Source of the DNA: Gordonia tangerina
GTDB lineage: Bacteria > Actinomycetota > Actinomycetes > Mycobacteriales > Mycobacteriaceae
Direction of reading: 5' to 3'
Assembly: GCF_021556435.1 (NCBI RefSeq)
Contig: NZ_JAKGCU010000004.1
Span: forward strand, 124,001 to 188,000
DNA: 64,000 bases
Positions 9,282 through 27,779 of this stretch are shown here, piece after piece (the stretch's first letter is position 1; every line of letters begins with the position of its first letter). A program made the translations under genes and the position numbers. The notes beneath the pieces were generated by a model. It was not told where the DNA came from and did no database searches. It saw only the letters and a list, made by a program, of their open reading frames with translations.

Positions 9282-10835
9282 TCAGGACACCGAGAACCGA
9301 CGTGCATCCAGGCCGGTGGCCCCTTCCGGAATCGGCGACGCGTAGGCCTCGACCTGTTGGTTGCCGTCCTTGTCGATAGCGCGGCATTCCACGGTGTGCT
9401 CACCCGGGGTCGCATCCCACGCGAAGCGCCACTGCCGCCAGGTGTCGATGGAGTATTCGGTGGCCAGCTCGGCGCGCTGCCACCCTCCGTCGTCGACGCG
9501 CACGTCGACCGCAGCTATCCCGGTGTGCTGCGCCCAGGCTGTTCCGGCGATGATAACCTCGCCCGCCTCGATCCGTGAAGCGGTGGGGCGATCGATGCGC
9601 GAGGACAGCTTGATGGGTCCGAGTGCCGACCATCCGCGGGTGGTCCAGTACGCCTTGGCGTCGGCGAAGGTGGTGAGTTCCCAGTCGGTGACCCACTTGG
9701 TGGCCGACACATAGCCGTACAGGCCCGGCACCACCTGCCGCACCGGGTAGCCATGCTCGACCGGCAACGGCTCCCCGTTCATGCCGATCACCAGCAGCGC
9801 GTCGCGGCCGTCGGTCACCGCGGACACCGGGGTGCCGCAGGTCCACCCGTCGGCGCTGGTCGACAGCAGCATGTCGGCGCCCGGCCGCACACCCGCCCGA
9901 TCGAGCAACGTCGCCATCGGCACACCCAGCCAGCGCGCGTTGTCGATGAGGTCGCCGCCGACCTCGTTGGACACGCAGGTCAACGTCACGACGCGTTCGG
10001 TCATCGGCATCGCGACAAGCTCATCCCAGCCGATGCGGATCTCGTTGTCGACCATGCCGTGAATACGCAGCGACCATCCCTCGGTGGTCAGGTTGGGGAC
10101 CTGCAACGCGGTGTCGATCCGGTAGAAGTCGGCGTTGGCGGTGACGAACGGGGTGGCGCCGGGCAGATCCAGGTCGGCGCCCGGGGGGATCGGCGGTGCC
10201 GGCGTGCGTGGCGACGGCAGAATGAGCTTGGTGCGGTCGGCCACGGTGCGGGCGGTGTCGGCGAGCATGCGTCGTCCGACGGTGCCGACCACCACCGCCA
10301 CCGCCGCGATACCGCCGGCGGTCAGCACGAATCGCCGGTCCACGCGGCGCCCGGCCGGGGCCGGATCATCGTCGGGGTCCGTCTGCTCCTCGGGCAGCAT
10401 CGAGACCAGCAGGCGCAACACCAGCACCGCCACCGCTGCACCGAGAAGCGAAGGCAGCACGAACGTCCACCGCGAGTCGGGCCGATCCCACGCCGCCAGC
10501 ACACCCACCACGCCGAACACCGCGACGACGACCGCGCCGATCGGCGGCCGACGATGCTCGGCGATGCCGCACGCAGCCGCGATCAGGGCGATCAGCACTC
10601 CCATGCCGATGTAGAGAGCGGGTTTGTCGGCGGTGCCGAAGGTACCGATGGCGAACTCACGACCGAAGGTCGGCGCATGGTCGACGACGGCTGCGCCGAC
10701 GGCGAAGAAGGGTGACGACCCGGTGTCGATCCACGCGGCGACGATCTCACCGACCGCGAGTCCGGCGCCGACGGCCACCAGTCCTGCCGCGGCCTCGGCG
10801 AACAGATGACTACGGGTACCGACGCGGGAGGTCAC
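9282..10835 (-). CDS. membrane-anchored molybdopterin-dependent oxidoreductase, sulfite-oxidase type
   Basis: About 517 residues: four to five N-terminal hydrophobic segments (to about residue 160), a Ser/Pro linker, then a sulfite-oxidase-type molybdopterin domain. VVTLTCVSNEVGGDLI carries the conserved Cys that ligates molybdenum; NARWLGVPMATLL and HGYPVRQVVPGLYGY are family segments. The C-terminal dimerisation domain ends WRFAWDATPGEHTVECRA. The active domain probably faces outside. Substrate unknown; mycobacterial Rv0218-like proteins share this layout. I prefer GTG 10835, just after AAGGGG, to GTG 10856, which falls in the hairpin at 10856-10871. Confidence 0.85.
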   Translation of the reverse strand: MTSRVGTRSHLFAEAAAGLVAVGAGLAVGEIVAAWIDTGSSPFFAVGAAVVDHAPTFGREFAIGTFGTADKPALYIGMGVLIALIAAACGIAEHRRPPIGAVVVAVFGVVGVLAAWDRPDSRWTFVLPSLLGAAVAVLVLRLLVSMLPEEQTDPDDDPAPAGRRVDRRFVLTAGGIAAVAVVVGTVGRRMLADTARTVADRTKLILPSPRTPAPPIPPGADLDLPGATPFVTANADFYRIDTALQVPNLTTEGWSLRIHGMVDNEIRIGWDELVAMPMTERVVTLTCVSNEVGGDLIDNARWLGVPMATLLDRAGVRPGADMLLSTSADGWTCGTPVSAVTDGRDALLVIGMNGEPLPVEHGYPVRQVVPGLYGYVSATKWVTDWELTTFADAKAYWTTRGWSALGPIKLSSRIDRPTASRIEAGEVIIAGTAWAQHTGIAAVDVRVDDGGWQRAELATEYSIDTWRQWRFAWDATPGEHTVECRAIDKDGNQQVEAYASPIPEGATGLDARRFSVS

Positions 10836-10855
10836 ATCCCCTTGATACCCCACCA

Positions 10856-10871
10856 CCCCGCTGCGGCGGGG
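10856..10871 (-). terminator. short hairpin after the flavoprotein gene
   Basis: CCCCGC/GCGGGG arms with a four-base loop, 16 bases downstream of the stop at 10888. It could be a weak terminator between two co-oriented genes. Confidence 0.4.
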
Positions 10872-10887
10872 CGCCCGGCGTGCACCG

Positions 10888-12363
10888 TCACCCTTCGGTC
10901 ACAACTGACGAGCGCTGTGCCGCATGCCGACCCGCGCGACGCCCGAAATACGAGCCCTCGCCGAGTTGCGTTCCGCTCGCGTAGCCCTTTCCGTCCTGGG
11001 CGATGTTGGCGGCACACGCGCCGGCCGCATAAAGCCCGGCGATGGGTGTGCCGTCGTTGTGGAGCACCTCGGCGTCGAGTGAGGTGGCCATGCCTCCCAT
11101 GGTGAAACAGGAGTACATCGCCTTGCCGAGACTCAGGTCGAAGGCCCCCCAGGGGCCGTGGTCCTGCGGGGCCAGGAACTCCGCGGACTTGTGGAAATCG
11201 GGATCTTCTCCGCGAGCGGCGTTTGCGTTGTAGTCGGCGAGGGTCTTCTGCAGGCGCCCCTCCGGGATTCCGAGTGCCGACTCCATCTCCTCGACGGTTT
11301 CCCACCCGTCGATCAGGTTGATCAACGGAACCTCCGGACGCTCCATATGCGCCTCGTCGACGATGAGGAAGGCGGCCGAATCCGGTTGGTCCATCACGAA
11401 ACCCGCGGTTCGCGAGTGGTAGGAGTCCTCGGCGACGAAGCGATCACCGTCCTTGTTCACCACGATGCCGGTGAGCAAAATGCTCGGTGGGTAGATCGGG
11501 GCGGTCACGAACGCCTGGTCCATGTGCCGCAGCGCGGCGCCCACGGATTCGCCGAGGCGGATGCCCAACCCGTCGTCGTAGGTACTGCCGAGGGTGAACG
11601 GCTTCTCGGCGACATGCGGCACGTACCGCGCGACCATCTCCTCGTTCATCACGAAACCACCGGCCGCGATGATCACCGAAGCCGCGCGGATGACGCCGTG
11701 AGCCTCAGGAGTGCGCCAGGACGCCCCGACCACGCCACCCGCGTCGTCGACGACGAGCTGCCGGGCGCCGGTCTCGTAACGGATCTCCGCACCCAGTTCG
11801 GTGAGACGCTTGACCAGGAGATCGACCACCATCGACGCACCGCCGGTGTCGCCGGGCACCGGCACCTTGTGGCCGCGCGGCGCGGGGACGGCCATGTCCT
11901 TGAACGGCCACACCTTCTCGTTGCCGGTGAACATCAACCCCTGGGTCTGCGGCTGGATCACCGCCTTCTCCGGATAGAAACTGCGCTCGAAACTGAACCC
12001 CAGCGACTCGAGCCAGGTGAAGTGCTCGACGCTGTCGACGCAGTAGGCGTGGATCTTGTCCGGCTCCGGGTCCCGGGACACCGCGGTGATGTACTTCTCC
12101 ATCTCTTCGGCGGAGTCCGCGTGCCCGGTCGCCTCCTGCACCGCGGTACCGCCGCCGAGATAGAAGTGTCCGCCGGCCATGCAACTGGTGCCGCCTGCAG
12201 CGGCCGCGCGTTCCAATACCAGTACCTTCGCGCCCGCGGCTGCCGCTTCCACCGCCGCGCTGCCGCCGGCCACCCCGCACCCGATGACCAGCACGTCGAC
12301 CTCGTCGGAGAACGACTCGACGGAGTCCAGCGCGATGGTGTCGGGGACCTCAGTTCCTGCCAT
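10888..12363 (-). CDS. FAD-binding dehydrogenase, KSTD/fumarate-reductase-like flavoprotein
   Basis: A 491-residue flavoprotein: FAD-binding VDVLVIGCGVAGGSAAVEAA near residue 25, a KSTD/fumarate-reductase middle domain, and a C-terminal segment GLYAAGACAANIAQDGKGYA with the GT-rich FAD contact. This superfamily includes 3-ketosteroid 1-dehydrogenases, fumarate reductases and related enzymes. A perfect KstR-type operator 22 bases upstream suggests a role in steroid or related lipid catabolism; the substrate is not shown by the sequence. Start ATG 12363; a GTG two codons upstream is possible. Confidence 0.8.
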   Translation of the reverse strand: MAGTEVPDTIALDSVESFSDEVDVLVIGCGVAGGSAAVEAAAAGAKVLVLERAAAAGGTSCMAGGHFYLGGGTAVQEATGHADSAEEMEKYITAVSRDPEPDKIHAYCVDSVEHFTWLESLGFSFERSFYPEKAVIQPQTQGLMFTGNEKVWPFKDMAVPAPRGHKVPVPGDTGGASMVVDLLVKRLTELGAEIRYETGARQLVVDDAGGVVGASWRTPEAHGVIRAASVIIAAGGFVMNEEMVARYVPHVAEKPFTLGSTYDDGLGIRLGESVGAALRHMDQAFVTAPIYPPSILLTGIVVNKDGDRFVAEDSYHSRTAGFVMDQPDSAAFLIVDEAHMERPEVPLINLIDGWETVEEMESALGIPEGRLQKTLADYNANAARGEDPDFHKSAEFLAPQDHGPWGAFDLSLGKAMYSCFTMGGMATSLDAEVLHNDGTPIAGLYAAGACAANIAQDGKGYASGTQLGEGSYFGRRAGRHAAQRSSVVTEG

Positions 12364-12385
12364 GCCCACAGCGTAAACGATCGAC

Positions 12386-12399: not shown

Positions 12400-12509
12400 G
12401 TTCTAGTGCGATGAGGGGTCAGCGAAATGCCAACCGCGCACGCGCCATGCATCCGCGCATGTCGCGACGTGCGCGCGAGCGTGACGAGTGCGCGCTTGCG
12501 CCGGTCACC

Positions 12510-14777
12510 TCACGCGCGCGAACGCGAATGCGCCCGGAACCGCCGCAACCGCAGGCTGTTGGCCACGACGAAGGCCGATGACAGCGCCATCGCCGCGCCG
12601 GCCAGCATCGGGTTGAGCAGCCCGGCGGCGGCGACCGGAATCGCCGCGACGTTGTAGGCGAATGCCCAGAACAGGTTGCCCTTGATGGTGGCCAGGGTGC
12701 GACGGGCCAGGCGGATGGCGTCGACCACCGCCCACAGGTCGCCGCTGACCACGGTCAGGTCACCAGCCTGGATCGCCACGTCGGTACCGGTACCCATCGC
12801 GATCCCGAGATCGGCCTGGGCCAGCGCCGCGGCGTCGTTGATCCCGTCGCCCGCCATCGCCACCGAGTGGCCCTGTGCCTGCAACTCCTCGATGGTCGCC
12901 AGCTTCTGGGCCGGCGTGACCTCGGCGACGACCTGCTCGATACCGACCGCCCGTGCCACGTGTTCGGCGGCGCCGGCGTTGTCGCCGGTGAGCAGGATCG
13001 GGGTCAGGCCCATCCGGCGCAGTTCGGTGATAGCCGCGTCCGAGGTGTCCTTCACCTGATCGCCCACCACGAGCACGGCAACCGGCCGGTCGTCCAAAGA
13101 CACGACCACCGCGGTGGCGCCGCCCGACTGCGCCTCGGCGACAGCTGCCGCCAGCGGCTCCGGGAGAGCGCCGGTGCCGCTGCTCGGCTTCTCGACGACG
13201 ACCCGGGCCCCGTCGACAATGCCCTCGACACCGATCCCCTCGACCGCCCGGAACTCGGTCACCTGCGGCGCCGGCCCGGCACACCGACGTTCGGCGGCCG
13301 CCACGACCGCACGCCCGATGGGATGCTCCGACCCCGACTCAACCGCAGCCGCCGAGCGCAATGCCCATTCCTCACCCGGCCCGTCGGCGACGACAACCAT
13401 CGACTGCAGGGTCATCTCGCCCGTGGTCACCGTGCCCGTCTTGTCGAGCACGATCGTGTCCACCCGCTTGGTGGATTCCAGCACCTCCGGCCCCTTGAGC
13501 AGCACCCCGAGTTGCGCGCCCCGACCGGTCCCGACCATCAGCGCGGTCGGGGTCGCCAACCCGAGAGCGCACGGGCACGCGATGATCAGCACTGCGACGG
13601 CCGCGGTGAAGGCGACCGAGATGCCACCGGAATCACCAGCGACACTTGCGCTTCCGAGCCAGAAGCCGAGCGTCGCGACAGCGATGGTGATCACTGCAGG
13701 CACGAAGTAGGCAGAGATCCGGTCGGCGAGGCGTTGCGCGTCGGCCTTACCGGCCTGCGCGTCGGCCACCATCTTCGCCATCTGTGCGAGTGAGGTGTCC
13801 GAACCCACCCGGGTGGCGCGGACCACCAGTCGCCCGGCGGCGTTGACGGTTGCACCGATGACCTCGTCACCGGCGGTGACCTCCACCGGCACGGATTCGC
13901 CGGTGATCATCGACGCGTCGACGGCCGAGACCCCGTCTACGACGATCCCGTCAGTGGCGACCTTCTCGCCGGGACGCACCACGAACACATCGTCGACGGC
14001 GAGCTCGGCCACCGGGATGCGGCGTTCGTTCCCGTCTACGAGGACCGCGACATCCTTGGCGCCGAGATCCAGCAGCGCACGGAGTGCATCACCGGCACGA
14101 CGCTTGGCACGCTTCTCGAAGTAGCGGCCGGCGAGCAAAAACGTGGTGACACCTGCCGCGGCCTCGAGATAGATGTTGGCGGCACCGTCGCCGCGAGACG
14201 CGATCAGGTCGAAGCCGTGGTGCATCCCGGGTTCTCCGGCGGTGCCGAAGAACAGCGCGTAAAGCGACCAGGCGAACGCGGCGAGCGTTCCCATCGAGAC
14301 CAGGGTGTCCATCGTGGTGGCTCCGTGGCGCAGGTTTATCCACGCGGCGCGGTGAAACGGGTAGGCGCCCCAGACGATGACGGGCGCCGCCAGCGTCAAC
14401 GACAGCCACTGCCAGTAGGTGAACTGCCAGGCGGGCACCATCGCCAGGGCGATCACCGGAACGCTGAGCACCGCGGAGACGACGAGCCGCTGCCGCAGGT
14501 CGTCGAGTTCGGTGTCACCGCGCTCGTCCGATGAATCGTGCTCGTCGTCGCCCGGTCCGCCGACTGGCGACGCGCCATATCCGGCGTCTCGCACCACGGT
14601 GATCAAGTCGGCGGAATCCAGCGTCGCGGGGTACTCGACATGGGCTTGCTCGGTCGCATAGTTTACCGACGCCCGGACACCGTCGAGCTTGTTCAGCTTG
14701 CGCTCGATCCGGTTGGCACACGACGCACAGGTCATGCCGTCGATGTCGAAGTCGACCTGCTCGAGGCCAATGGTCAT
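12510..14777 (-). CDS. copA: copper-translocating P1B-type ATPase
   Basis: A 755-residue metal ATPase. One N-terminal heavy-metal-associated domain carries GMTCASC (C17, C20). The membrane metal site is ACPCALG, the phosphorylation site is DKTGT, the nucleotide domain has SEHPIGRAV, and [14 protein letters not shown] closes the P-domain. CPC plus HMA is the copper(I) exporter class. It is the last gene of the csoR-copZ-peptide-ATPase operon, which fits copper efflux. Start ATG 14777 lies six bases after the small-peptide stop. Confidence 0.94.
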
Positions 14778-14783
14778 CTCAGC

Positions 14784-14948
14784 TCACTCCGAATACTGTT
14801 GATGGGGACCGGATTGATGAGTGCCGGAAGCGGGCAGCGGGGCATCCCCGGCCCACGGATCCACCGCTCGGCCGACACCGAAGGCGATGCCGAAGACGGC
14901 AGCCAGGGCGGCGACGAAGGCGGCGATCCGATAGGCGGGGGTGGTCAT
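14784..14948 (-). CDS. 54-residue single-pass membrane peptide in the copper operon
   Basis: The small gene starts at ATG 14948, which overlaps the copZ stop as ATGA, and ends six bases before the copper ATPase start, so it fills the gap between them. The peptide begins MTTPAYRIAAFVAALAAVFG and continues with more hydrophobic sequence (one transmembrane helix, residues 6-25), then a short tail with two His and a final QQYSE. It is too short for most automatic thresholds. The tight coupling on both sides argues that it is real. Function unknown; helping the ATPase or handling copper at the outer face is inference. Confidence 0.72.
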   Translation of the reverse strand: MTTPAYRIAAFVAALAAVFGIAFGVGRAVDPWAGDAPLPASGTHQSGPHQQYSE

Positions 14949-15148
14949 GCCAGTTGGTAGCCGGCTTCGGCGACCGCGGCGCCGACCTCGGCGGTGTCGA
15001 GTTCGCGGTCACTGGTGACCTCGACGGCGCCGGTGTCGAGGGTGACGTCGACGCTGTGGACGCCGGAGATCTCCTCGATCTCCTCGCGTACCGACGCCAC
15101 ACAGTGCTCGCAGGTCATGCCGGTCACGGTGTAGGTGGCGGTGGTCAT
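14945..15148 (-). CDS. copZ: copper chaperone CopZ-like heavy-metal-binding protein
   Basis: A 67-residue ferredoxin-fold HMA protein starting MTTATYTVTGMTCEHC (metal cysteines 13 and 16). It binds copper(I) in the cytoplasm and hands it to the ATPase or to the CsoR sensor. The ATG at 15148 follows AAGGAGG, which fixes the start. Its stop overlaps the start of the small membrane peptide. Confidence 0.92.
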   Translation of the reverse strand: MTTATYTVTGMTCEHCVASVREEIEEISGVHSVDVTLDTGAVEVTSDRELDTAEVGAAVAEAGYQLA

Positions 15149-15259
15149 GGTTCGTTCCTCCTTCGTTGGACGTCGAATCGACGTATGTGCGGTGGTGGTG
15201 CATGTCGAGCCGGCCGGATACACCGACGGCCGGTTCGCCGAGGGGCAGGATTGGCCGTG

Positions 15260-15553
15260 TCAGGACTTGACGAGCCGGGTGATCGCCGCCATGGCCTCGT
15301 CGATCTTTTCGTGGCCGGCGGCGTCGCTTTCCTGAGCGGCGTGCATCACGCAGTGGTTCATGTGCTCCTCGAGCAGACCCAGTCCGACGGCCTGTAGCGC
15401 CTTGGTCATCGCAGAGACCTGCGTGAGGATGTCGATGCAGTAGGCCTCGTCGTCGACCATGCGCTGCAATCCACGCGCCTGCCCCTCGATCCGCCGAAGC
15501 CGTTTGAGGTAGTCGTCTTTGCTGCTGATGTAGCCGTGCGATGCGGTGTCCAT
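15260..15553 (-). CDS. csoR: copper-sensing repressor CsoR
   Basis: A 97-residue all-helical repressor. C39, H64 and C68 have the exact spacing of the Mycobacterium tuberculosis CsoR copper ligands (C-x24-H-x3-C), in CIDILTQ and HMNHC. KRLRRIEGQARGLQRMV is the DNA-contact helix. Copper(I) binding releases it from DNA. The start could also be ATG 15562, three codons earlier. A CsoR-type palindrome lies directly upstream. Confidence 0.93.
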   Translation of the reverse strand: MDTASHGYISSKDDYLKRLRRIEGQARGLQRMVDDEAYCIDILTQVSAMTKALQAVGLGLLEEHMNHCVMHAAQESDAAGHEKIDEAMAAITRLVKS

Positions 15554-15580
15554 GTCTTCCATCCTGCCCTCAGATACCGG

Positions 15581-15595
15581 TACCCCCCTAGGGTA
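15581..15595. promoter_or_regulatory. CsoR-type operator upstream of csoR
   Basis: TACCCCCCTAGGGTA is a near-palindrome of the class ATACCCC-N3-GGGGTAT bound by CsoR/RicR repressors. It lies 28 bases before the csoR start, as in autoregulated cop operons. Confidence 0.75.
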
Positions 15596-15674
15596 CACAT
15601 CGCAGGACACGACCGAAACCCACACTGAACAGCAGTTTTGTCGAGTGGCTCACTCGACAGAATTCACAACGGCC

Positions 15675-19548: not shown

Positions 19549-20955
19549 TCAGCCCGCGAGCAGATCCCACACCGGCCCGGCCGCGACGCCGAGCAGTACC
19601 GATACGGCCGCCGCGACGACCGCCGTCGCCGCCGCCCAGGGTTCGGCCCGCGGCACATCGTCGGCGCGACCGGGCGCTGTGCGCCCGAAGACCGGCGCCA
19701 ACCAGCGCAGATAGAAGAACAGACTCAGCACGGTGGTGATCACGAGAGCGATTGCGAGCCACACCCATTCGCCCTCCCAGGCGGCGGTGGCGACGGTCAG
19801 TTTACCGACGAACACCGCGGTCGGCGGGGTGCCGACCAGACCGAGCAGGGCCACCACCAGACTGCCCGCAAGCATGGGTGAGGTCGCCGCGAGACCGCGG
19901 TATTCGCCCAGCGTCCGCAGATCGGGTCGCGCCGCCGACACCGCGAATGCGCCGACGTTGGTGACGGTGTAGCCGACGAGATAGAACAGCAACGCGGGTA
20001 GCGCCAACGCGCTGTCGCCGATCACCACGACCGGCAATAGCAGGAACCCGACCTGCGCGACCGTCGACCAGCCGAGCAGTCGTCGTGGGTCGTCCTGCCA
20101 GTAGGCGGCCAGCGTGGCCAGGACCATGCCGGCGACCGCAAACACGGCGAGCACCGCAGCCCACGCCACGGTGTCGGGCACGACCTGGGCCAGTCGGTAA
20201 AGGGCGACCAGCGCGCCCACCTTGGGCACCGTCGTGACGAAGGTGGCGACGGTGGCATGCGATCCCTGCGCGGCGTCGGGCACCCAGAAGTGAGCGGGCA
20301 GGCCGCCGGCCTTGAACAGCAGCCCCGCGGTGACCCCGAGCAGACCCGCGGCGACCACGGCTGGTGGCGCGTCGGGCAGGCGGCGGGTCAGTTCCGGGTA
20401 ATCGGTCACCGCGGTGACGCCGTACAGCAGGGTGATACCGGCGAGCAGCACGATCCCGAACAAGGCACCGAGCAGGTAGGTCTTCATCGCCGCCTCCGCG
20501 CTCGCACCATCGCGACGCAGACCGATCAGCCCGTACAGCGGGATACCGGCGAGCAGAAAACCGGGCGCGAGGACCAGCAGATCCTGTGCCCCGGCGACGA
20601 CGAGGGTGCCGGCCGTCGCGAGCAGGATCAGCGCGTAGGTCTCACTCTCCCGGTCCGATCCGGCGATCTCACCGCCCGCTATGGCGAGCACGGCGAGGGC
20701 CCCGACGCCGGCCGCGATGCGTACCACCCCGGTGGCGGTGTCGACCACGAAGGCACCCTCGAACGCCGTGGTCGTGCCGCCGGCCGACGCGACCGCGGCA
20801 GAGATCACGGCGCCCACCAGCACGACCGCCGCGAGGAGGCGTGTCCACCATTGACGGGCCCGCGGCACGAAGGAGCCGCAGATCAGCACCGCCAGACCGC
20901 CGGCGAAGATCAGGATCTCCGGCAGCATGACCACCGGGCGCATCATGTCGTCCAC
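19549..20955 (-). CDS. nuoN: complex I-like antiporter subunit NuoN
   Basis: A 468-residue, about 14-helix membrane protein, last of the complex I-like operon. It keeps the lysine of broken helix 7 (LLFKAGGLPAHFWVPDAAQGS), TVPKVGAL, and the C-terminal lysine in GTPPTAVFVGKLTVA. In the helix-5 region the usual glutamate is not visible (LLVLAPGFLLAGIPLYGLIG). Start GTG 20955, three bases after nuoM; ATG codons follow three codons later. It should form one of the proton channels of the membrane arm. Confidence 0.88.
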   Translation of the reverse strand: MDDMMRPVVMLPEILIFAGGLAVLICGSFVPRARQWWTRLLAAVVLVGAVISAAVASAGGTTTAFEGAFVVDTATGVVRIAAGVGALAVLAIAGGEIAGSDRESETYALILLATAGTLVVAGAQDLLVLAPGFLLAGIPLYGLIGLRRDGASAEAAMKTYLLGALFGIVLLAGITLLYGVTAVTDYPELTRRLPDAPPAVVAAGLLGVTAGLLFKAGGLPAHFWVPDAAQGSHATVATFVTTVPKVGALVALYRLAQVVPDTVAWAAVLAVFAVAGMVLATLAAYWQDDPRRLLGWSTVAQVGFLLLPVVVIGDSALALPALLFYLVGYTVTNVGAFAVSAARPDLRTLGEYRGLAATSPMLAGSLVVALLGLVGTPPTAVFVGKLTVATAAWEGEWVWLAIALVITTVLSLFFYLRWLAPVFGRTAPGRADDVPRAEPWAAATAVVAAAVSVLLGVAAGPVWDLLAG

Positions 20956-20958
20956 CGA

Positions 20959-22470
20959 CTACCGCCCGACCAGGTCGACGAGGGTGGTGGCGGCCGGTTC
21001 GATGACGTCGAGCAGCGGGCGTGGCATCACCCCGATGACGATCGACAGCGCGATCAGCGCCCCGACTGCTGCGGTTTCGGTGACGCGGAGGTCCGCGAAG
21101 CCCGGCGACCGGCCTGCGACCGGCCCGGTGAAGATGCGTTGCAATGCCCACAGGAACAGCCCCGCGACGAGCAGGATGCCGACCAGGGCGACGGCGGCCA
21201 CCGGAACCGCGGCGATGCTGCCGGTGAAGATCTGGAACTCGGCGATGAAACCGGAGAAGGCGGGCAGGCCCAGCGAGGCGAAAGCACCCAGTGCGAACAG
21301 CGTCGCCAATCTCGGCGCCGACGACGCCAGCCCACCGTAACCGTCGAGGTCATAACTGTCGGCGCGAGCGAAGAACACTCCGGCGAGCAGGAACAGCGCA
21401 CCGGTGATCAGGCCGTGGCTGACCATCTGGGTGACCGCGCCGGTCACCGCCACCGACCGGGCGTCGGCGGTGTCGGCCGCGACCACACCGGCGGCGCCGA
21501 CGGCCACCAACACGTAGCCCATGTGGTTGACCGACGTGTAGGCGATCATGCGTTTGAGGTCGGTTTGTGCCAGCGCGACGAGCGCGCCGTAGATCACCGA
21601 CACCACGCCGACCGCGATGACGACGGGTGCCCAATCCTGCCAGGAGCCCGGCAGCATCGGCATCGCCACCCGCACGAAACCGTAGGTACCCATCTTCAGC
21701 AGCACCGCGGCCAGCACCGCCGAACCGATGGCCGGTGCGTCGGTGTGGGCGGGTGGCAGCCAGGTGTGGAACGGGACGGCCGGTGTCTTGATGGCCAGCC
21801 CCAGCAGGATCGCCGCCAGGATGAAACCACCGGTGAGTGTCCCGTCGGCCGACGGCGACTGCGCCGCGAGTTCCACCATGTCGAAGGTGTGCGGGTCGGC
21901 GACCACATAGAGCCCGATGAATCCGAGCAGCAGGACCAGCGACCCGACGAAGGTGTACAGGAAGAACTTGAGCGCAGACCGTCGGGCATCGCCGTGCCCC
22001 CAACCGGCGATGACGAAATACATTGCGACGATCGACAGATCGAAGAAGACGAAGAAGAGAATGAGGTCGGCGGCGGCGAACAACCCCAGGCTGACGCTTT
22101 GCAACAACAAGAACAGCGCCACCTGTGCGCGCGGCCGGTCGTCGGTGTCGCGCAGCGCATAGATCGCGCAGGCCAGGAAGATCACCGCCGTCATCGCGAT
22201 CAGCGGCAGCGACAGGCCGTCGACGCCGACGTGATAGCTGCTGTCCACTCCGGGAATCCAGGGAACCTGCGCGTCGAGGGCCAGCTCACCGCCGACCGGG
22301 CTGTCGTAGATCCACCAGGCCCACCCGACCAGCGCGAGGTCGACGGTGGTGACCGCGACCCACAGCCATCGGATCGCTTGGCCCGACCAGCCGGGAACCA
22401 GCAGAACCGCCGCGGCCGCCAACGGCACGAAGACGATCAGACTGAGGACTATCTGGCTGGGCACGATCAC
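20959..22470 (-). CDS. nuoM: complex I-like antiporter subunit NuoM
   Basis: A 503-residue, about 14-helix antiporter-like subunit. LAIKTPAVPFHTWLPPAHTD and LLKMGTYGF hold the conserved lysines, and MVSHGLITGALFLLAGV the helix-12 region. The helix-5 acid reads FFDLSIVAMYF, with Asp where most NuoM proteins have Glu. The GTG start overlaps the nuoL stop (GTGA). Role: proton translocation in the membrane arm. Confidence 0.9.
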   Translation of the reverse strand: MIVPSQIVLSLIVFVPLAAAAVLLVPGWSGQAIRWLWVAVTTVDLALVGWAWWIYDSPVGGELALDAQVPWIPGVDSSYHVGVDGLSLPLIAMTAVIFLACAIYALRDTDDRPRAQVALFLLLQSVSLGLFAAADLILFFVFFDLSIVAMYFVIAGWGHGDARRSALKFFLYTFVGSLVLLLGFIGLYVVADPHTFDMVELAAQSPSADGTLTGGFILAAILLGLAIKTPAVPFHTWLPPAHTDAPAIGSAVLAAVLLKMGTYGFVRVAMPMLPGSWQDWAPVVIAVGVVSVIYGALVALAQTDLKRMIAYTSVNHMGYVLVAVGAAGVVAADTADARSVAVTGAVTQMVSHGLITGALFLLAGVFFARADSYDLDGYGGLASSAPRLATLFALGAFASLGLPAFSGFIAEFQIFTGSIAAVPVAAVALVGILLVAGLFLWALQRIFTGPVAGRSPGFADLRVTETAAVGALIALSIVIGVMPRPLLDVIEPAATTLVDLVGR

Positions 22471-24314
22471 CTCACGAACACGAGTACGACGACGGCAAGG
22501 AACAGGACGATCACGATCTGCAAGTAGTACTGGTGGAGTTGGCCGGTCTGGGGACGGCGGGCGAGCACGCCGAGCCGCCCCGCGAGTCTGGCAGCCCCCT
22601 CCACCGCACCGTCGACGCCGTCGGAGTCGATGCGGGCGGTGCGGCGGGCGAACCGGGTGGTGGCGGCCGCGGTGGATTCGACAGCGGCGTCGAGCCGTTT
22701 GTCGGCGCGGGCAAGAGCAGTCGCCAGCCGCAGCGCCGGCCTGACGACAACCGCACGAACCCCGCGTTCCAGGCCCAACCAGTCTGCAGCCCAGGGAAGT
22801 TCACGGGACCACAACGTTTCGGACACCCCACGCCACCACACCAGAGCGACGACGATGGCGGCGAGTACCGCCGACACGGCCAGCTCGATCGCCGTGGACG
22901 TGGCGACCGACCCGTCGTCGAGCGCGTCGGCCAGGGCGGCACCCGCCGGCGGCAGCGCGAGCACACCGGCGACGGCCGCTCCGATCGCGAGTACGAACAC
23001 CGGGGCCACCGCACCGCGGGGCGGTGACACCTCGAACGAGGCCGACACGCGCCGGATACCCGGTCGGGCCACCACCGCAACGATTTTCGCCGCGTAGACG
23101 GCCGACAGCACCGACGCCAGGAGGCCGACCCCGTAGAGCCACGGCGAGTGGTCGAGTGCCGCGGCGAGAACGGTGTCCTTGGTGGCCCACAACGACAGTG
23201 GCGCGACGCCCGCCAGTGCGAGTGCCGCGACGACGGCGGCGGCGCCGAGCACGCGCCACCGAAGCGCCACGCCGCCGAGCCTGCCGAGATCCTTCGTACC
23301 GAGCGTGGTCAGCCACGCACCAGCGGCGAGAAACAATGCGGCCTTGGTGAACGCGTGCGCGACGAGCTGCGCGGAGCCGCCCGCGACCGCGCCGAGACCA
23401 CCGGCCGCGACCACGAAACCCAACTGCGCGGAGGTGGACGCCGCCAGCAGCTGCTTGAGATCTCGCTGGGCCACCGCGACCACACCGAGGACCACCGCGG
23501 TCGCCATGCCGATCCATGCGGCGGTGGGCCCGGCCCAGCCGGTCACGTCGAGCAGCGGCGCGGTCCGCAGCAGCAGGTACCCACCCATCGCCACCATGGC
23601 CGCCGAATGCAGCAGCGCGCTGACCGGGCTGGGGCCTTCCATCGCCCGGGACAGCCAGAACGAGAACGGCAGTTGGGCCGCCTTGCCGAGCGCGGCCACC
23701 AGAACCCCGGCTGCGATCACGTGCCGCCATCCGTCGCTCGCCGCGGGCAGGTCTGCCAGCGCCATGCCCGCGCCCCCGGCGAGCGCCGCTCCGGCAGCGA
23801 GGTACAGCCCGAGGTCGGCGGTCCGCGTGGTGACGAACGCGACCGATCCGGCCGACATCGCGTCGGGGCGCTGCCAATGAAAGCCGATCAGCGCATACGA
23901 CATCGCCCCCATCAGTTCCCACGCGAGCAGCAAGGTGGGCACCGTCGCAGCACTCGCGGTGACCATCACCGACGCGACGAACAGCAGCATGAGCCCGTGA
24001 AATCGGGCCGGAGTTGTGGTGATGTCGGCGGCAGCGAAGATGACGACCAGCAACGCGACGATGGCGACCACCGGGATCACCAAGGCGGACAGGTCATCGA
24101 CCGTCAGCGCGAAGTCGGCGTCGGCGATGAACGGCACTGACACGGCGGGACGTTCGATTGCCACCACCACCGCCAGCGCCGACACCACTGCGGTGACGGA
24201 CATCCCGGTGGCGGCGGCGAAACGATCGGCACGCGGGGCCAGCGCGAGGATGCCGCCGGCCACGGTGGGCACCAGGAACAGCGACCACATCGCGGTCGCG
24301 ACAAGGGTGTTCAT
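22467..24314 (-). CDS. nuoL: complex I-like antiporter subunit NuoL
   Basis: A 615-residue protein with full NuoL length, including the C-terminal lateral helix and last transmembrane anchor (LQIVIVLFLAVVVLVFV). Key residues are present: LLLAWELMGAMSYALIGF (helix-5 Glu), ALGKAAQLPFSFWLSRAMEG (Lys) and VAHAFTKAALFL (helix-12 Lys). The proton-channel machinery therefore looks intact. Start ATG 24314, seven bases after nuoK. Confidence 0.92.
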   Translation of the reverse strand: MNTLVATAMWSLFLVPTVAGGILALAPRADRFAAATGMSVTAVVSALAVVVAIERPAVSVPFIADADFALTVDDLSALVIPVVAIVALLVVIFAAADITTTPARFHGLMLLFVASVMVTASAATVPTLLLAWELMGAMSYALIGFHWQRPDAMSAGSVAFVTTRTADLGLYLAAGAALAGGAGMALADLPAASDGWRHVIAAGVLVAALGKAAQLPFSFWLSRAMEGPSPVSALLHSAAMVAMGGYLLLRTAPLLDVTGWAGPTAAWIGMATAVVLGVVAVAQRDLKQLLAASTSAQLGFVVAAGGLGAVAGGSAQLVAHAFTKAALFLAAGAWLTTLGTKDLGRLGGVALRWRVLGAAAVVAALALAGVAPLSLWATKDTVLAAALDHSPWLYGVGLLASVLSAVYAAKIVAVVARPGIRRVSASFEVSPPRGAVAPVFVLAIGAAVAGVLALPPAGAALADALDDGSVATSTAIELAVSAVLAAIVVALVWWRGVSETLWSRELPWAADWLGLERGVRAVVVRPALRLATALARADKRLDAAVESTAAATTRFARRTARIDSDGVDGAVEGAARLAGRLGVLARRPQTGQLHQYYLQIVIVLFLAVVVLVFVR

Positions 24315-24321
24315 CGGCGGC

Positions 24322-24624
24322 TCACTCGGCGAGGTCGTCGGCCATGTCGGTCATGTCGGCTCGGCGCTGTCGGTGCAGGAGGGTGGCCACCGCGAATCCC
24401 ATGGCCATCTCCACGGTCATCGCGGCGATGATGACCAGTAGCAACACCTGCCCCGACGGGTCCGGGGCGAGGAACCACCACACCGCCCCGGCGGCCAAGA
24501 TGACGCCGTTGATCATGAGTTCGAGGCCCATCATCACCATCACCACCACCTGTTGGGACAGTGCGCCGTACAGGCCGACGCAGAACAGCGCGGCGGCCAC
24601 GAGGAGCACGGTCTGCAGGGTCAT
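24322..24624 (-). CDS. nuoK: complex I-like subunit NuoK
   Basis: A 100-residue, three-helix subunit. Both membrane glutamates needed for proton transfer are present: E35 in GLELMING and E72 in MTVEMAMGF. Start ATG 24624 overlaps the nuoJ stop (ATGA). Methionine is more common than usual (VVVMVMMGLELM). Confidence 0.92.
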   Translation of the reverse strand: MTLQTVLLVAAALFCVGLYGALSQQVVVMVMMGLELMINGVILAAGAVWWFLAPDPSGQVLLLVIIAAMTVEMAMGFAVATLLHRQRRADMTDMADDLAE

Positions 24625-25184
24625 CGGCCCACTCCTCCCGGCTGCGGATCGCGGCCCGGTCGGGCCTTCAGGTCGTCGCCGAATCGGTCGTAGCGAGTGC
24701 GCTGCACCGCGAGCACGATCCCGGCGACCATGGTCGCGACCATCACCGGGCTGATGACGATCATCGCGAGCATCTTCGGTCCCATGAGTTCCTCGCCGAG
24801 GGCGCGAGTGACATCGACCGACGGCGTACCGCGCCGGCTCGGCCAGTCGGCCATCAGGATTCCCGCGGCGAGCGACATGAAGGTCCCGATCGACGCCGCG
24901 AGCGCCCACCGTTTGTCGTGCACCATGCTCATGGGCATGAGTGCCGGGTTCATCCCCATGAACATCACCATGTAGACAGCCATTACCGCCATCTCCATGA
25001 CCATCATCAGGATGGTCACCACGCCGACGTAGTTCTGCTGCAACAACAGCAATGCCACTCCGACGGCGACGAACGAGATGGCCAGCGCGTAGGTGGCCCG
25101 CGCCATCGAGTCCACCCAGAACACCGCGGCCCCGGCGGCCACCGTGATGACCGCGCACACCCAGAAGATGATCTCTGTCAGCAT
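24621..25184 (-). CDS. nuoJ: complex I-like subunit NuoJ, methionine-rich
   Basis: A 187-residue, five-helix subunit placed by position between H and K and by YVGVVTILMM, which aligns with the YVGAI-x-VLF helix of NuoJ. Residues 60-87 hold 12 methionines in 28 positions, very unlike ordinary NuoJ. Start ATG 25184, two bases after nuoH, preceded by GGAAGGG. Confidence 0.85.
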   Translation of the reverse strand: MLTEIIFWVCAVITVAAGAAVFWVDSMARATYALAISFVAVGVALLLLQQNYVGVVTILMMVMEMAVMAVYMVMFMGMNPALMPMSMVHDKRWALAASIGTFMSLAAGILMADWPSRRGTPSVDVTRALGEELMGPKMLAMIVISPVMVATMVAGIVLAVQRTRYDRFGDDLKARPGRDPQPGGVGR

Positions 25185-25186
25185 GT

Positions 25187-26122
25187 TCAGCCCTTCCCGG
25201 CCGCGATGACGGCAACCACGAGGTCTTGGATCAGAACCAGCGGGAGCGCGATCACCCAGCCGATCTCCATGAACTTGTCCGGGCGCAGGATCGGCAGTCG
25301 GCGGCGCAGCCACACCAGTGCGGTGAGCACGATCGTCGTCTTCACCAGCACCCACAGCCAGTCGGGCAACAGTGGTCCGGCACCACCGCCGAGGAACATG
25401 GGGACGGCGAAAGCGGCGCCCGCCGCGAGCAGCGCCAAGCGCCCACCCTGGAAGAGCAGACGGTCCACCCCGGACAGTTCGGCGGTCACTCCGCCGGCGA
25501 GGTCGCGGCCGGCGGCCGCGGCGAACGGACCCCACACCGAGAACGCCGTCACGGTAAGGCAGTAGACCAAAAACGCCACCGGCATCCACACGACATACCA
25601 AAGTCCCTGTTGTGCCGCCACGACATCGGTGACGCGGAGGCTCTCTGCGGCGATCGCGGGAGCAACCAGCGCGAACATCAGTGGCAGTTCGTAGCCCAGA
25701 CCGTGTGCGAGGAAACGGTACCCGCCCACCAGTCCGTACGCCGAGTTGGCACCCCAGCCAGTGAGCCACACCAACGCCCAGATCATCACGTCCATTGCGT
25801 TGAACCACACGATGCCGACGTCGAGGTCGAACAAGGTCCACGAGCCGAGTGGTACGACGGTGATCATCAACAGAGCGGCGACGAGCATCCCGTATGCACC
25901 TGCACGCCAGAGCAATTCGTCAGCCTTCACGGGTACTCGGCGTCGTTGCCGAAGCAGCCGGGCGGTCTCGTGCACAGGACTGGCCGCCGCGCTCAGATGA
26001 GCGCCGCGCGGAGCCGCGAGCACTCTATCGACCCCGGCGGCGTACAGCGCGAACACCCCGAGGATCGCCGCGGCGGCCGGCGCCCAGATCGCGGGCACGG
26101 TGGCGATGGTCGACTCACCCAT
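25187..26122 (-). CDS. nuoH: complex I-like subunit NuoH, divergent
   Basis: A 311-residue protein with about eight helices. LGYELPLMFALVAPAIAAES keeps the helix glutamate of NuoH, and VPMFLGGGAGP matches the conserved FLGGWxGP. The loop that normally reads FDLPEAE, part of the quinone chamber, instead reads GRDLAGGV. The ATG at 26122 overlaps the stop of the preceding gene by eight bases. NuoH normally joins the membrane arm to the quinone site, so the changed loop suggests altered or lost quinone chemistry. Confidence 0.83.
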   Translation of the reverse strand: MGESTIATVPAIWAPAAAAILGVFALYAAGVDRVLAAPRGAHLSAAASPVHETARLLRQRRRVPVKADELLWRAGAYGMLVAALLMITVVPLGSWTLFDLDVGIVWFNAMDVMIWALVWLTGWGANSAYGLVGGYRFLAHGLGYELPLMFALVAPAIAAESLRVTDVVAAQQGLWYVVWMPVAFLVYCLTVTAFSVWGPFAAAAGRDLAGGVTAELSGVDRLLFQGGRLALLAAGAAFAVPMFLGGGAGPLLPDWLWVLVKTTIVLTALVWLRRRLPILRPDKFMEIGWVIALPLVLIQDLVVAVIAAGKG

Positions 26123-27326
26123 GCTGTTCTCCCGGCGCGGGAATGACCATCTGCGCGACATCGATACCCAGACTGGCGATGACCAGCCGCGTGGCCGCGA
26201 GATCGAGCCCGACGATCAGTTCCGGTATCAGTAACTCCCCGCAGCGCCAGTGCAGGGGCGTCACGAAGGGTCCCCCCTCCTCACCATCGGCTCCCCCAAT
26301 CACACTGAGCCGCGCCAGCATTCGGTCGTGCACGTCGCCGGTCAGTGCCGGAAGGTACTCGTCGACACCGAGTTCCTCAGCCCGATCATGATCCAGCACA
26401 CCGAGACCACGCAGCGACCACCGCAGGGGCGACGACCGCCGAATCCGCCGATACAGCGGCCCAAGTTCTGCCCGCGCCCGCTCCAGCTCATCGTCGACGA
26501 GCAGTGCGCGCACCGCACGCGCCTGCGCTGCAACGTTTTCCGCGCCGGCTAGAGCCAACACATCGACGACAACCGAACAGTGGTTCACCGCTTCGACAGT
26601 TGAGTCGGCCCCGGACGCAACGAGCGCTTCTGCGTCGAGCACATCCACCTGCGCATCGACCACGACGTCACCCTGCAGCGTGCATTGGACGACGAGCCCG
26701 GCCGGCCAGTGAGTCATTATCGGCCCCAGCGGCAGATGCAGGACGTCCATCTCGAGGCCGTCGCGATCGTCGGCACCCTCAGCGAGTGGAATCCCGGCCG
26801 GTGCCATCGACCCGTGGTCCATGCCGCCGTGGTCCATGCCGCCGTGGTCCATGCCGCCGTGGTCCATCTGACCGTGGTCCATCTGACCGTGGCCCATCTG
26901 ACCGTGGCCCATTCCGCCGTGGTGCATCCGGGCATGCTCTTCGGCGTCGTCGGAGTGGCGCGCGGAACCGTCGTCGCCCTTGTCGTGTCGATGGCGCGCA
27001 TCGTCGCGCTGCCGATCGATGTCGGACAGCTCCACGACCGCCTGGTCGAAGGCGGGATCCACCTGGCTGCGTTCGTCCACCTGGATGCGCACTCTTGGGC
27101 CCGGAAGCTGTTGCCAGACTTGCTCGATCGCCTCGGTGAGCCGTGGACCGGACGTTCCCACGACGGCGAGGACGTCGGCGTCGGCCGGCGACTCCGCAAC
27201 CACCCATCCACGCTCCCGCACCTTGGCGTCGACCACGACCTCGAGGATGCGATTCCCTGCAGCCGCCACAACGAGCACATGGACGCGGCGTACAGCCAGC
27301 CGAGCCAGCAGCGACTTCACGCCCAT
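26115..27326 (-). CDS. fused, degenerate NuoB/NuoD-like protein with Met/His-rich linker
   Basis: A 403-residue fusion. Residues 1-85 follow NuoB (ESPADADVLAVVGTSGPRLT aligns with the SPRQADLMIVAGTVT stretch), but the LACC position reads VVAA and the two later cysteines are absent, so cluster N2 cannot form. Residues 134-174 are eight Met/His pentapeptides. Residues 196-403 follow NuoD: LGPIMTHWPAG (for QHPSTHG), GDVHDRMLARL (for GDCYDRFLVRM) and a C-terminus LGIDVAQMVI (for GSIDIVLGDV). The tyrosine that holds quinone in NuoD is not recognisable. The ATG at 27326 overlaps the nuoA stop. It probably caps the membrane arm and may bind metal; it cannot work as canonical NuoB. Confidence 0.78.
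   Translation of the reverse strand: MGVKSLLARLAVRRVHVLVVAAAGNRILEVVVDAKVRERGWVVAESPADADVLAVVGTSGPRLTEAIEQVWQQLPGPRVRIQVDERSQVDPAFDQAVVELSDIDRQRDDARHRHDKGDDGSARHSDDAEEHARMHHGGMGHGQMGHGQMDHGQMDHGGMDHGGMDHGGMDHGSMAPAGIPLAEGADDRDGLEMDVLHLPLGPIMTHWPAGLVVQCTLQGDVVVDAQVDVLDAEALVASGADSTVEAVNHCSVVVDVLALAGAENVAAQARAVRALLVDDELERARAELGPLYRRIRRSSPLRWSLRGLGVLDHDRAEELGVDEYLPALTGDVHDRMLARLSVIGGADGEEGGPFVTPLHWRCGELLIPELIVGLDLAATRLVIASLGIDVAQMVIPAPGEQHG
26808..26927 (-). repeat. eight 15-bp tandem repeats encoding Met-x-His-Gly-x
   Basis: Coding tandem repeats give MHHGG, MGHGQ twice, MDHGQ, MDHGG three times and MDHGS. The MDHGxM style is known from copper-resistance proteins such as PcoA/CopA. The last copies are nearly identical at DNA level, indicating recent expansion. 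Confidence 0.85.
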
Positions 27327-27748
27327 CGCAGCACGCCTTCTCGCCACGCCCAGGCGACGACCACGAACAGTGCCGCGAGGAAGACAAACATCTCGATGAC
27401 CGCCGACATCCCGAGATCGGCGACAACCACTGCCCATGGGTACATGAACAACATCTCAACGTCGAAGGCCAAGAACAGCAGCGTCACCGGATACCAGCGT
27501 GCGTGATAGCGCGAGAGGGCGTGCTCGGCAGGCGCCCAACCCGACTGGAAGGGCATTACCGTCAGCGATGAGCGCGCCACCGCGGTGAGGCGGTGCAGCG
27601 CGAGAACCGCAACTATGACCCCGAGGGCCACCGTGAGCATCGCTCCCACCCCGGCGTAGATGACGCACCTCCTCCGGTCGCCGTACCGCACGATCACTGC
27701 CGTCACCGCGTTCCAGGCGAGTTGCCCGATGAGGTCCGCCTCAAACAC
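27317..27748 (-). CDS. nuoA: complex I-like subunit NuoA
   Basis: A 143-residue, three-helix subunit. PFQSGWAPAEHALSRYHARW is the loop region (usual PYESG with following RFSVKFY), and FLAFDVEMLFMYPWAVV carries the conserved Asp and Glu. The loop cysteine found in many NuoA proteins is absent. I use GTG 27748; GGAGGAGG lies inside the frame at codons 25-27, so a shorter form cannot be excluded. First gene of the operon, with a CsoR-type palindrome 15 bases upstream. Confidence 0.88.
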   Translation of the reverse strand: MFEADLIGQLAWNAVTAVIVRYGDRRRCVIYAGVGAMLTVALGVIVAVLALHRLTAVARSSLTVMPFQSGWAPAEHALSRYHARWYPVTLLFLAFDVEMLFMYPWAVVVADLGMSAVIEMFVFLAALFVVVAWAWREGVLRWA

Positions 27749-27762
27749 CGCCCACTCTGTCT

Positions 27763-27779
27763 ATACCCCTATGGGGTAT
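27763..27779. promoter_or_regulatory. CsoR-type operator upstream of the complex I-like operon
   Basis: ATACCCCTATGGGGTAT is a perfect 17-bp palindrome of the class ATACCCC-N3-GGGGTAT bound by copper-sensing CsoR/RicR repressors. It lies 15 bases before the nuoA GTG and shares the TACCCC core with the csoR operator at 15581. Confidence 0.78.

Follow-up and report, generated by a model that had tools for sequence, protein, structure and literature searches.

We describe an eight-gene operon in a 64,000-nucleotide (nt) stretch of Gordonia tangerina DNA (hereafter the window) that retains the membrane arm of respiratory complex I (NDH-1) without its redox chemistry, and that very probably serves to handle copper. 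The explanation we favour, at roughly even likelihood, is a membrane complex that derives from the proton-translocating arm of complex I and may work as an Mrp-like Cu(I)/H+ antiporter in parallel with the ATP-powered CopA. All positions are those of the window, and the operon lies on its minus strand.

A complex I-like operon without redox input

The operon (19549-27748) runs nuoA, a gene for a NuoB-linker-NuoD fusion that we call X, nuoH, J, K, L, M and N. Seven of the eight proteins pass the curated Pfam cut-off, X having no Pfam match of its own. Successive genes overlap (A/X by 4 or 10 bases depending on the start codon, X/H by 8, J/K and L/M by 4 each) or are separated by at most 10 bases (H/J by 2, K/L by 7, M/N by 3). 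An earlier, sequence-only reading of this DNA had proposed such an operon in canonical order, with no E, F, G or I and no cysteines for cluster N2, and the gene content, the junctions and the alignments of X bear this out: nuoC, E, F, G and I are all missing from the window operon, and the N2-ligand cysteines are absent from the aligned NuoB-like part of X. Since the NuoD histidines and the NuoJ tyrosine are lost as well, the sequence shows that the redox input of complex I is gone. An NADH-linked second complex I was considered and rejected, there being no N-module, N2 or quinone residues.

The host keeps a respiratory complex I elsewhere. A search of the genome (5.29 Mb, 66 contigs) found a complete separate nuo locus on contig C63, with both an NADH module and membrane subunits separate from those of the window, which holds the genome's sole NuoF match. 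The sequence-only reading had named a second E, F, G and I set as a possible objection; such a set does exist, though within its own complete operon, so that the objection is a formal one. The window operon is 20-37% identical per subunit to the host's complex I, and 34-49% identical to related operons of Halomonas and Rubrobacter for six of the seven subunits, with K at 55 and 44%. The exception is H, at 31% to the host's complex I and 35 and 32% to the Halomonas and Rubrobacter operons.

A methionine stripe in NuoJ

Residue counts were taken over 40 aligned operons. This set leaves aside near-duplicates (L033, L039, L081, L086, L142), a short contig (L131), one locus with no operon (L045) and the broken plasmid copies L041/L087, L083, L085 and L114, which come from Rhodococcus oxybenzonivorans, Ornithinimicrobium, Streptomyces NBC_00080 and Vreelandella sulfidaeris; the close pairs L110/L111, L079/L082 and L034/L076 were kept. 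Counts for NuoL, NuoM and NuoN, and the tree below, use 39 operons, the contig of L141 ending inside its operon, and X is likewise represented by 39 rows, with no X detectable in L138.

Eleven NuoJ positions are all methionine in 39 of the 40 operons, and ten of them are in the remaining one; among 31 canonical NuoJ sequences the same positions hold no methionine in 29 and a single one in two. The tyrosine of transmembrane helix 3 (TM3) is an essential residue of complex I. It is present in all 31 actinobacterial sequences compared and has become methionine in 40/40 operons versus 0/31, with the neighbouring alanine turned to glutamate at the same frequencies (40/40 versus 0/31). Counted from position 25205, the residues M68, M72, M75, M79 and M83 fall within an 80-degree arc on an ideal helix, and the stripe was not seen in the nearest solved NuoJ sequences among the alignments listed.

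The enrichment is confined to one part of the membrane arm. In 19 operons compared with the complex I of the same hosts, methionine makes up 9.8% versus 2.1% of NuoJ, 9.8% versus 6.1% of NuoK and 5.3% versus 3.5% of NuoA, and its content in H, L, M and N is below that of complex I. NuoK has gained M29 and M69 in every operon and M31 and M73 in 36/40, while M32 is retained throughout. NuoA has gained M99, M102 and H82 in 40/40, next to E98, itself present in all 40.

The sequence-only reading held the proton-channel residues of K, L and M to be intact, and this was confirmed: NuoK keeps E35 in all 40 operons and E72 in 38 (aspartate in the other two), NuoL keeps five such residues in 39/39 and NuoM four in 39/39, its TM5 glutamate being aspartate in 32 and glutamate in 7. 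That reading was silent on the NuoJ stripe and on the channel residues of NuoN, in which the TM8 and TM12 lysines are retained in 39/39, the TM7 lysine is retained in 32/39 and replaced by glutamate in 7, and the TM5 glutamate is lost. Its account of an unrecognisable quinone chamber holds in part. The NuoD motif GPxHPxxHG is replaced in X by GPIMTHWPAG, with the histidine motif and quinone residues lost, and the NuoH acidic loop is mostly replaced across the 19 operons, but E215 is retained and one glutamate has changed to aspartate.

The fusion protein X

By alignment, X is a dead NuoB-NuoD fusion. Its N-terminal part is NuoB-related: a family profile of 18 homologues finds Thermus Nqo6 as its best match in the PDB (E 1.2e-7), and the NCBIfam nuoB model matches X at E 2.8e-4, under that model's cut-off. 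The C-terminal part is tied to NuoD through relatives, the window family matching their C-terminal parts at E 8.5e-30 and these matching NuoD at E 7.3e-20 over 258 columns, while the window family and NuoD, compared directly, match weakly (E 0.014). PF00346 is above its cut-off in four relatives, from Thioclava, Rubrobacter, Nitratireductor and Halomonas.

The insert that separates the two parts varies among lineages. In most Actinomycetota it consists of Met/His/Asp/Gly repeats, including the Met/His repeats proposed earlier for the window protein, which are present at about residues 134-171. In Thioclava, Nitratireductor and Rubrobacter proteins the insert is instead a tandem of HMBD metal-binding domains (PF19335), and in Roseivivax and Acuticoccus there is little insert and a long His-rich tail on NuoJ instead. 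X is fast-evolving; between the window and L031 all other subunits show more synonymous than non-synonymous changes.

Probable copper regulation

The palindrome ATACCCC-ATA-GGGGTAT upstream of nuoA occurs in one perfect copy in the 5.29-Mb genome, as the only TACCCCNNNGGGGTA site, and the sites closest to it differ at 2 of 14 positions. A chance palindrome was rejected on the ground of this uniqueness. The true start of nuoA may lie downstream of the GTG at 27748, homologues beginning near residue 25, which leaves the spacing between operator and gene uncertain. About 4 kb past nuoN in the same window is a csoR/ricR-copZ-copA cluster, with GTACCCCCCTAGGGTAC at 15580-15596, at csoR/ricR. The genome encodes two CsoR-family proteins (PF02583), one on contig C1 without the histidine and the one in the window, whose C and H-x3-C residues we take to be copper ligands. 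Across the family, a site with at least 12/14 matches lies upstream of nuoA in 10/38 operons versus 5/2129 random stretches from the same loci. The unique operator, the copper-type repressor with copZ-copA in the window and the recurrence of the palindrome support copper control of the window operon via a putative CsoR/RicR operator, as the sequence-only reading had claimed.

The second CsoR-family protein (L044, 9187-9456), which lacks the copper histidine, is encoded beside an MMPL-type transporter, with palindromes at 9493, 11692 and 11728; their spacer is 2 bases, versus 3 in the copper operators, and the protein is possibly a sulfur or persulfide regulator. A Mycobacterium avium plasmid (L075) carries copper-type palindromes at 12486 and 12806, near copZ and a neighbouring gene, with no palindrome close to nuoA and an IS110-type element upstream of nuoA.

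Distribution and copper neighbours

The operon recurs in Actinomycetota, Alphaproteobacteria and Gammaproteobacteria, often on plasmids and beside copper genes. At E 1e-3, X matches 12/59 genomes of a genus sample, nine of them in the repeat stretch only and three beyond the repeats; in a family sample the count was 12/301. The window NuoJ matches 35/396 Actinomycetota at E 1e-12, and 15 stretches from 14 of those genomes were examined. In a plasmid collection X retrieved 16 records, the window NuoJ 19 and the Halomonas NuoJ 31. We viewed 22 plasmid regions, namely 13 of the 16 X records, five added by the window NuoJ and four among those added by the Halomonas NuoJ.

Copper genes are present in 13/22 annotated plasmid regions, L083 being doubtful with weak indications only, and tblastn places a copper gene at 15/23 genome loci. 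Seven of the latter have a CopA-type match of at least 400 bits, a label that in this search also covers a multicopper oxidase query. A background of 137 Cu-ATPase matches in 60 genomes (~182 Mb) predicts about 0.35 for 23 stretches of 20 kb. The Roseivivax and Acuticoccus plasmid copies adjoin CueR, and the Halomonas copy adjoins a two-component pair, a multicopper oxidase and CopB. The association with copper reaches as far as CueR-bearing plasmids of Proteobacteria and relatives whose fusion has HMBD domains. Several hosts are marine or from vents, and copper neighbours occur in soil and clinical isolates too.

In a tree of 39 operons, with the hosts' own complex I as the only outgroup, the Halomonas-Roseivivax plasmids are nested among actinobacterial contigs (support 0.998-1.0) and the Thioclava-Paracoccus-Nitratireductor plasmids group with Rubrobacter (1.0). 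This topology is consistent with transfer of the operon between phyla. Rubrobacter tropicus apparently carries the operon twice, on a 205,328-bp plasmid and on its chromosome (L126/L142 and L143).

Discussion

The operon shares with respiratory complex I the canonical order of A, H, J, K, L, M and N, a NuoB/NuoD-derived protein between A and H and the proton residues of K, L and M; it differs in lacking C, E, F, G and I, the N2 cysteines and the quinone residues, in the replacement of the NuoJ tyrosine inside a methionine stripe and in the metal-binding segment that joins its NuoB part to its NuoD part. With the Mrp antiporter, which is likewise redox-free, it has in common homologous L/M/N-type proton subunits and a J/K-type cation region; unlike Mrp, it has NuoA, NuoH and a NuoB/D protein, no MrpE, F or G among its eight genes, and a copper setting. 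In the available part of the Mrp structure report (PMC7419157), the key Na+ residue E706 stands at the NuoJ tyrosine position, where all 40 operons have methionine, MrpC has two histidines where NuoK has glutamate, cations are placed between E706, the NuoK homologue and the TM5 glutamate of MrpD, and protons pass through the NuoL/M/N-like part. The changes in the operon hit this same spot, with NuoJ tyrosine turned to methionine, methionines around the NuoK acids and the TM5 glutamate of NuoN lost, and may on that account be read as a Cu(I)-tuned site.

We propose that X, on the cytoplasmic side, would gather Cu(I), perhaps from CopZ, and that the ion would travel through the NuoH/A/J/K region via the NuoJ methionine stripe and the Met/Glu sites of NuoK, at the position of the cation site in the Mrp antiporter. 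Protons entering via NuoL and NuoM, with NuoN altered, would supply the power to push copper outward, and X would deliver Cu(I) to a cation site whose preference has shifted away from hard ions. Several independent signs give the involvement of copper good support. To judge from sequence, proton-coupled Cu(I) transport by the complex stands at an even balance, and export as its direction slightly below that. The sequence-only reading had envisaged a copper-controlled ion machine driven or modulated by metal; copper control and the proton channels stand, but homology with the Mrp antiporter makes proton influx that moves copper likelier than metal as the driver.

Several observations weigh against this proposal. 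No copper gene was found in 8/22 annotated plasmid regions (L076, L081, L084, L085, L087, L114, L125, L127), three of which are broken copies, or by tblastn at 8/23 genome loci, and no CsoR palindrome lies upstream of nuoA in 28/38 operons. The TM5 glutamate that NuoN has lost in 39/39 operons is part of the Mrp coupling site, and the methionine stripe could be structural. X of L042 has no metal linker and that of L036 a Met/Asp linker with no histidine, while AlphaFold models of X are poor (mean predicted local distance difference test scores of 48.1 and 42.6). Because the 40 operons contain close pairs, the residue counts are not independent events.

Among other explanations, a copper-induced pump or antiporter for H+ (or Na+/H+) could guard the proton-motive force or pH during metal stress or in seawater, with copper merely regulating or gating it. 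The intact L and M channels, the marine or vent origin of several hosts and the interpretation in print, by which the partial NDH-1 operons of marine Actinobacteria are ion pumps, as given in the available parts of those papers, fit such a role, but it leaves the invariant NuoJ stripe, the HMBD domains and the copper neighbours in soil and clinical isolates unexplained, and the loss of tyrosine and glutamate at the Mrp cation site speaks against hard cations; we regard it as unlikely. A metal-driven or metal-gated proton translocator, in which Cu(I) binding in X or downhill Cu(I) flow drives or opens the channels so that the complex acts as sensor, brake or energy harvester, would make sense of a metal-binding protein docked where complex I takes in energy, and of intact proton channels. 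The gradient of free copper is small, however, in cells that also have CopA and multicopper oxidases, and the extension of the stripe to the cytoplasmic loop suggests a path more than a switch, which makes this quite improbable.

Less probable again is a copper redox enzyme whose X-bound Cu(I)/Cu(II) trades electrons with quinone at the old site in a proton-coupled manner. Its copper-binding sequence does sit where complex I hands electrons to quinone, and multicopper oxidases are frequent neighbours; yet X retains neither the N2 ligands nor the quinone residues of NuoD, the acidic loop of NuoH is mostly gone, and repeat linkers that range from absent to long are unlike a redox site. The idea of a complex I copy in decay that mobile elements happen to carry could draw on the broken copies L083, L085, L087 and L114 and on the fast evolution of X, but it is contradicted by kept gene order, invariant residues and mostly synonymous change over 40 operons in two phyla, and we give it next to no credence.

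The antiporter proposal bears on operons that are already in print. The available parts of earlier reports describe partial NDH-1 operons (NDH-1 partial 2) as marine adaptation genes of Salinispora, sponge Streptomyces, S. griseus and Kocuria flava, read as a marine proton or sodium pump (PMC3314556, PMC4018334, PMC6002675), and as patchy in Actinobacteria, where they spread horizontally, with sister clades among Proteobacteria (PMC3314556). Two of the reports name the seven nuo genes that the window operon also has, A, H, J, K, L, M and N (PMC4018334, PMC6002675), and the available parts mention no eighth gene, methionine stripe or metal domain. These are probably the same operon family, matched here by gene lists rather than sequences. 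The sequence-only reading had thought the combination new: the seven nuo genes in partial operons were not, while our literature search found no copper link for them in print. Fpo-like complexes retain redox-active subunits that work with other electron donors, unlike the window operon. Within the accessible text, "copper" has no occurrence in PMC3314556 or PMC4018334, copper resistance in PMC6002675 is a matter of copD, and a 2025 survey that counts C-I-like and incomplete complexes, some of which, such as Fpo, lack EF or EFG and so share the absence of an NADH module, does not contain the word (PMC12361115).

We think it possible, at a little under even likelihood, that the operon encodes a heavy-metal transporter of a class new to the complex I superfamily: a mobile Cu(I)/H+ antiporter of eight subunits, whose E-channel has turned into a Met/Glu copper path and whose dead NuoB/D module has turned into a metal antenna. 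If so, complex I architecture would be tied neither to redox chemistry nor to hard cations, its proton-coupling arm having been re-tuned for a toxic soft metal. As the essential tyrosine and quinone chemistry would here be replaced by a methionine path, the operon would offer a natural test of coupling between the disputed E-channel/NuoJ helix and the proton channels. The known copper defences would gain a proton-driven route, found on plasmids from Mycobacterium avium, Arthrobacter, Halomonas and others, and partial NDH-1 operons could no longer be seen as pieces of a marine NADH dehydrogenase. The database label "NADH-quinone oxidoreductase subunits" hides the operon's genes from view.

Features and neighbouring genes

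Table 1. Positions of the operon, its operator and the copper genes in the window
Feature	Position	Strand	Basis or remark
Operator, CsoR-type	27763..27779	none	upstream of nuoA; sole perfect genome copy
nuoA-like, 143 amino acids (aa) from GTG	27317..27748	-	PF00507 E 2.4e-24
X, NuoB-like + Met/His-rich linker + NuoD-like fusion, 403 aa from ATG	26115..27326	-	alternative GTG start 27320
X Met/His/Asp/Gly repeats	26814..26927	-	sequence
nuoH-like, 311 aa	25187..26122	-	PF00146 E 4.5e-46
nuoJ-like	24621..25184	-	PF00499 E 2.6e-12
NuoJ methionine stripe, TM3 and following loop, M67 to H96	24918..25007	-	alignments of 40 operons
nuoK-like, 100 aa	24322..24624	-	PF00420 E 3.6e-13
nuoL-like, 615 aa	22467..24314	-	PF00361 E 2.4e-42
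nuoM-like, 503 aa	20959..22470	-	PF00361 E 3.6e-67; TIGR01972 above cut-off
nuoN-like, 468 aa	19549..20955	-	PF00361 E 8.4e-49
csoR/ricR, copper-type repressor, start uncertain	15260..15625	-	PF02583; NF052430 RicR E 3.2e-37, below model cut-off
copZ-like chaperone	14945..15223	-	sequence with GMTCEHC
copA, copper P-type ATPase	12510..14777	-	TIGR01511 E 1.5e-153, above cut-off

Past copA, on the same strand (9282-12369), are open reading frames for a molybdopterin-type oxidoreductase and a FAD-dependent dehydrogenase, both named from sequence. Downstream of a Curtobacterium operon (L078, 25742-28716) lie genes for a metal-sensitive regulator, rhodanese, DsrE and TauE, with 2-base-spaced palindromes.

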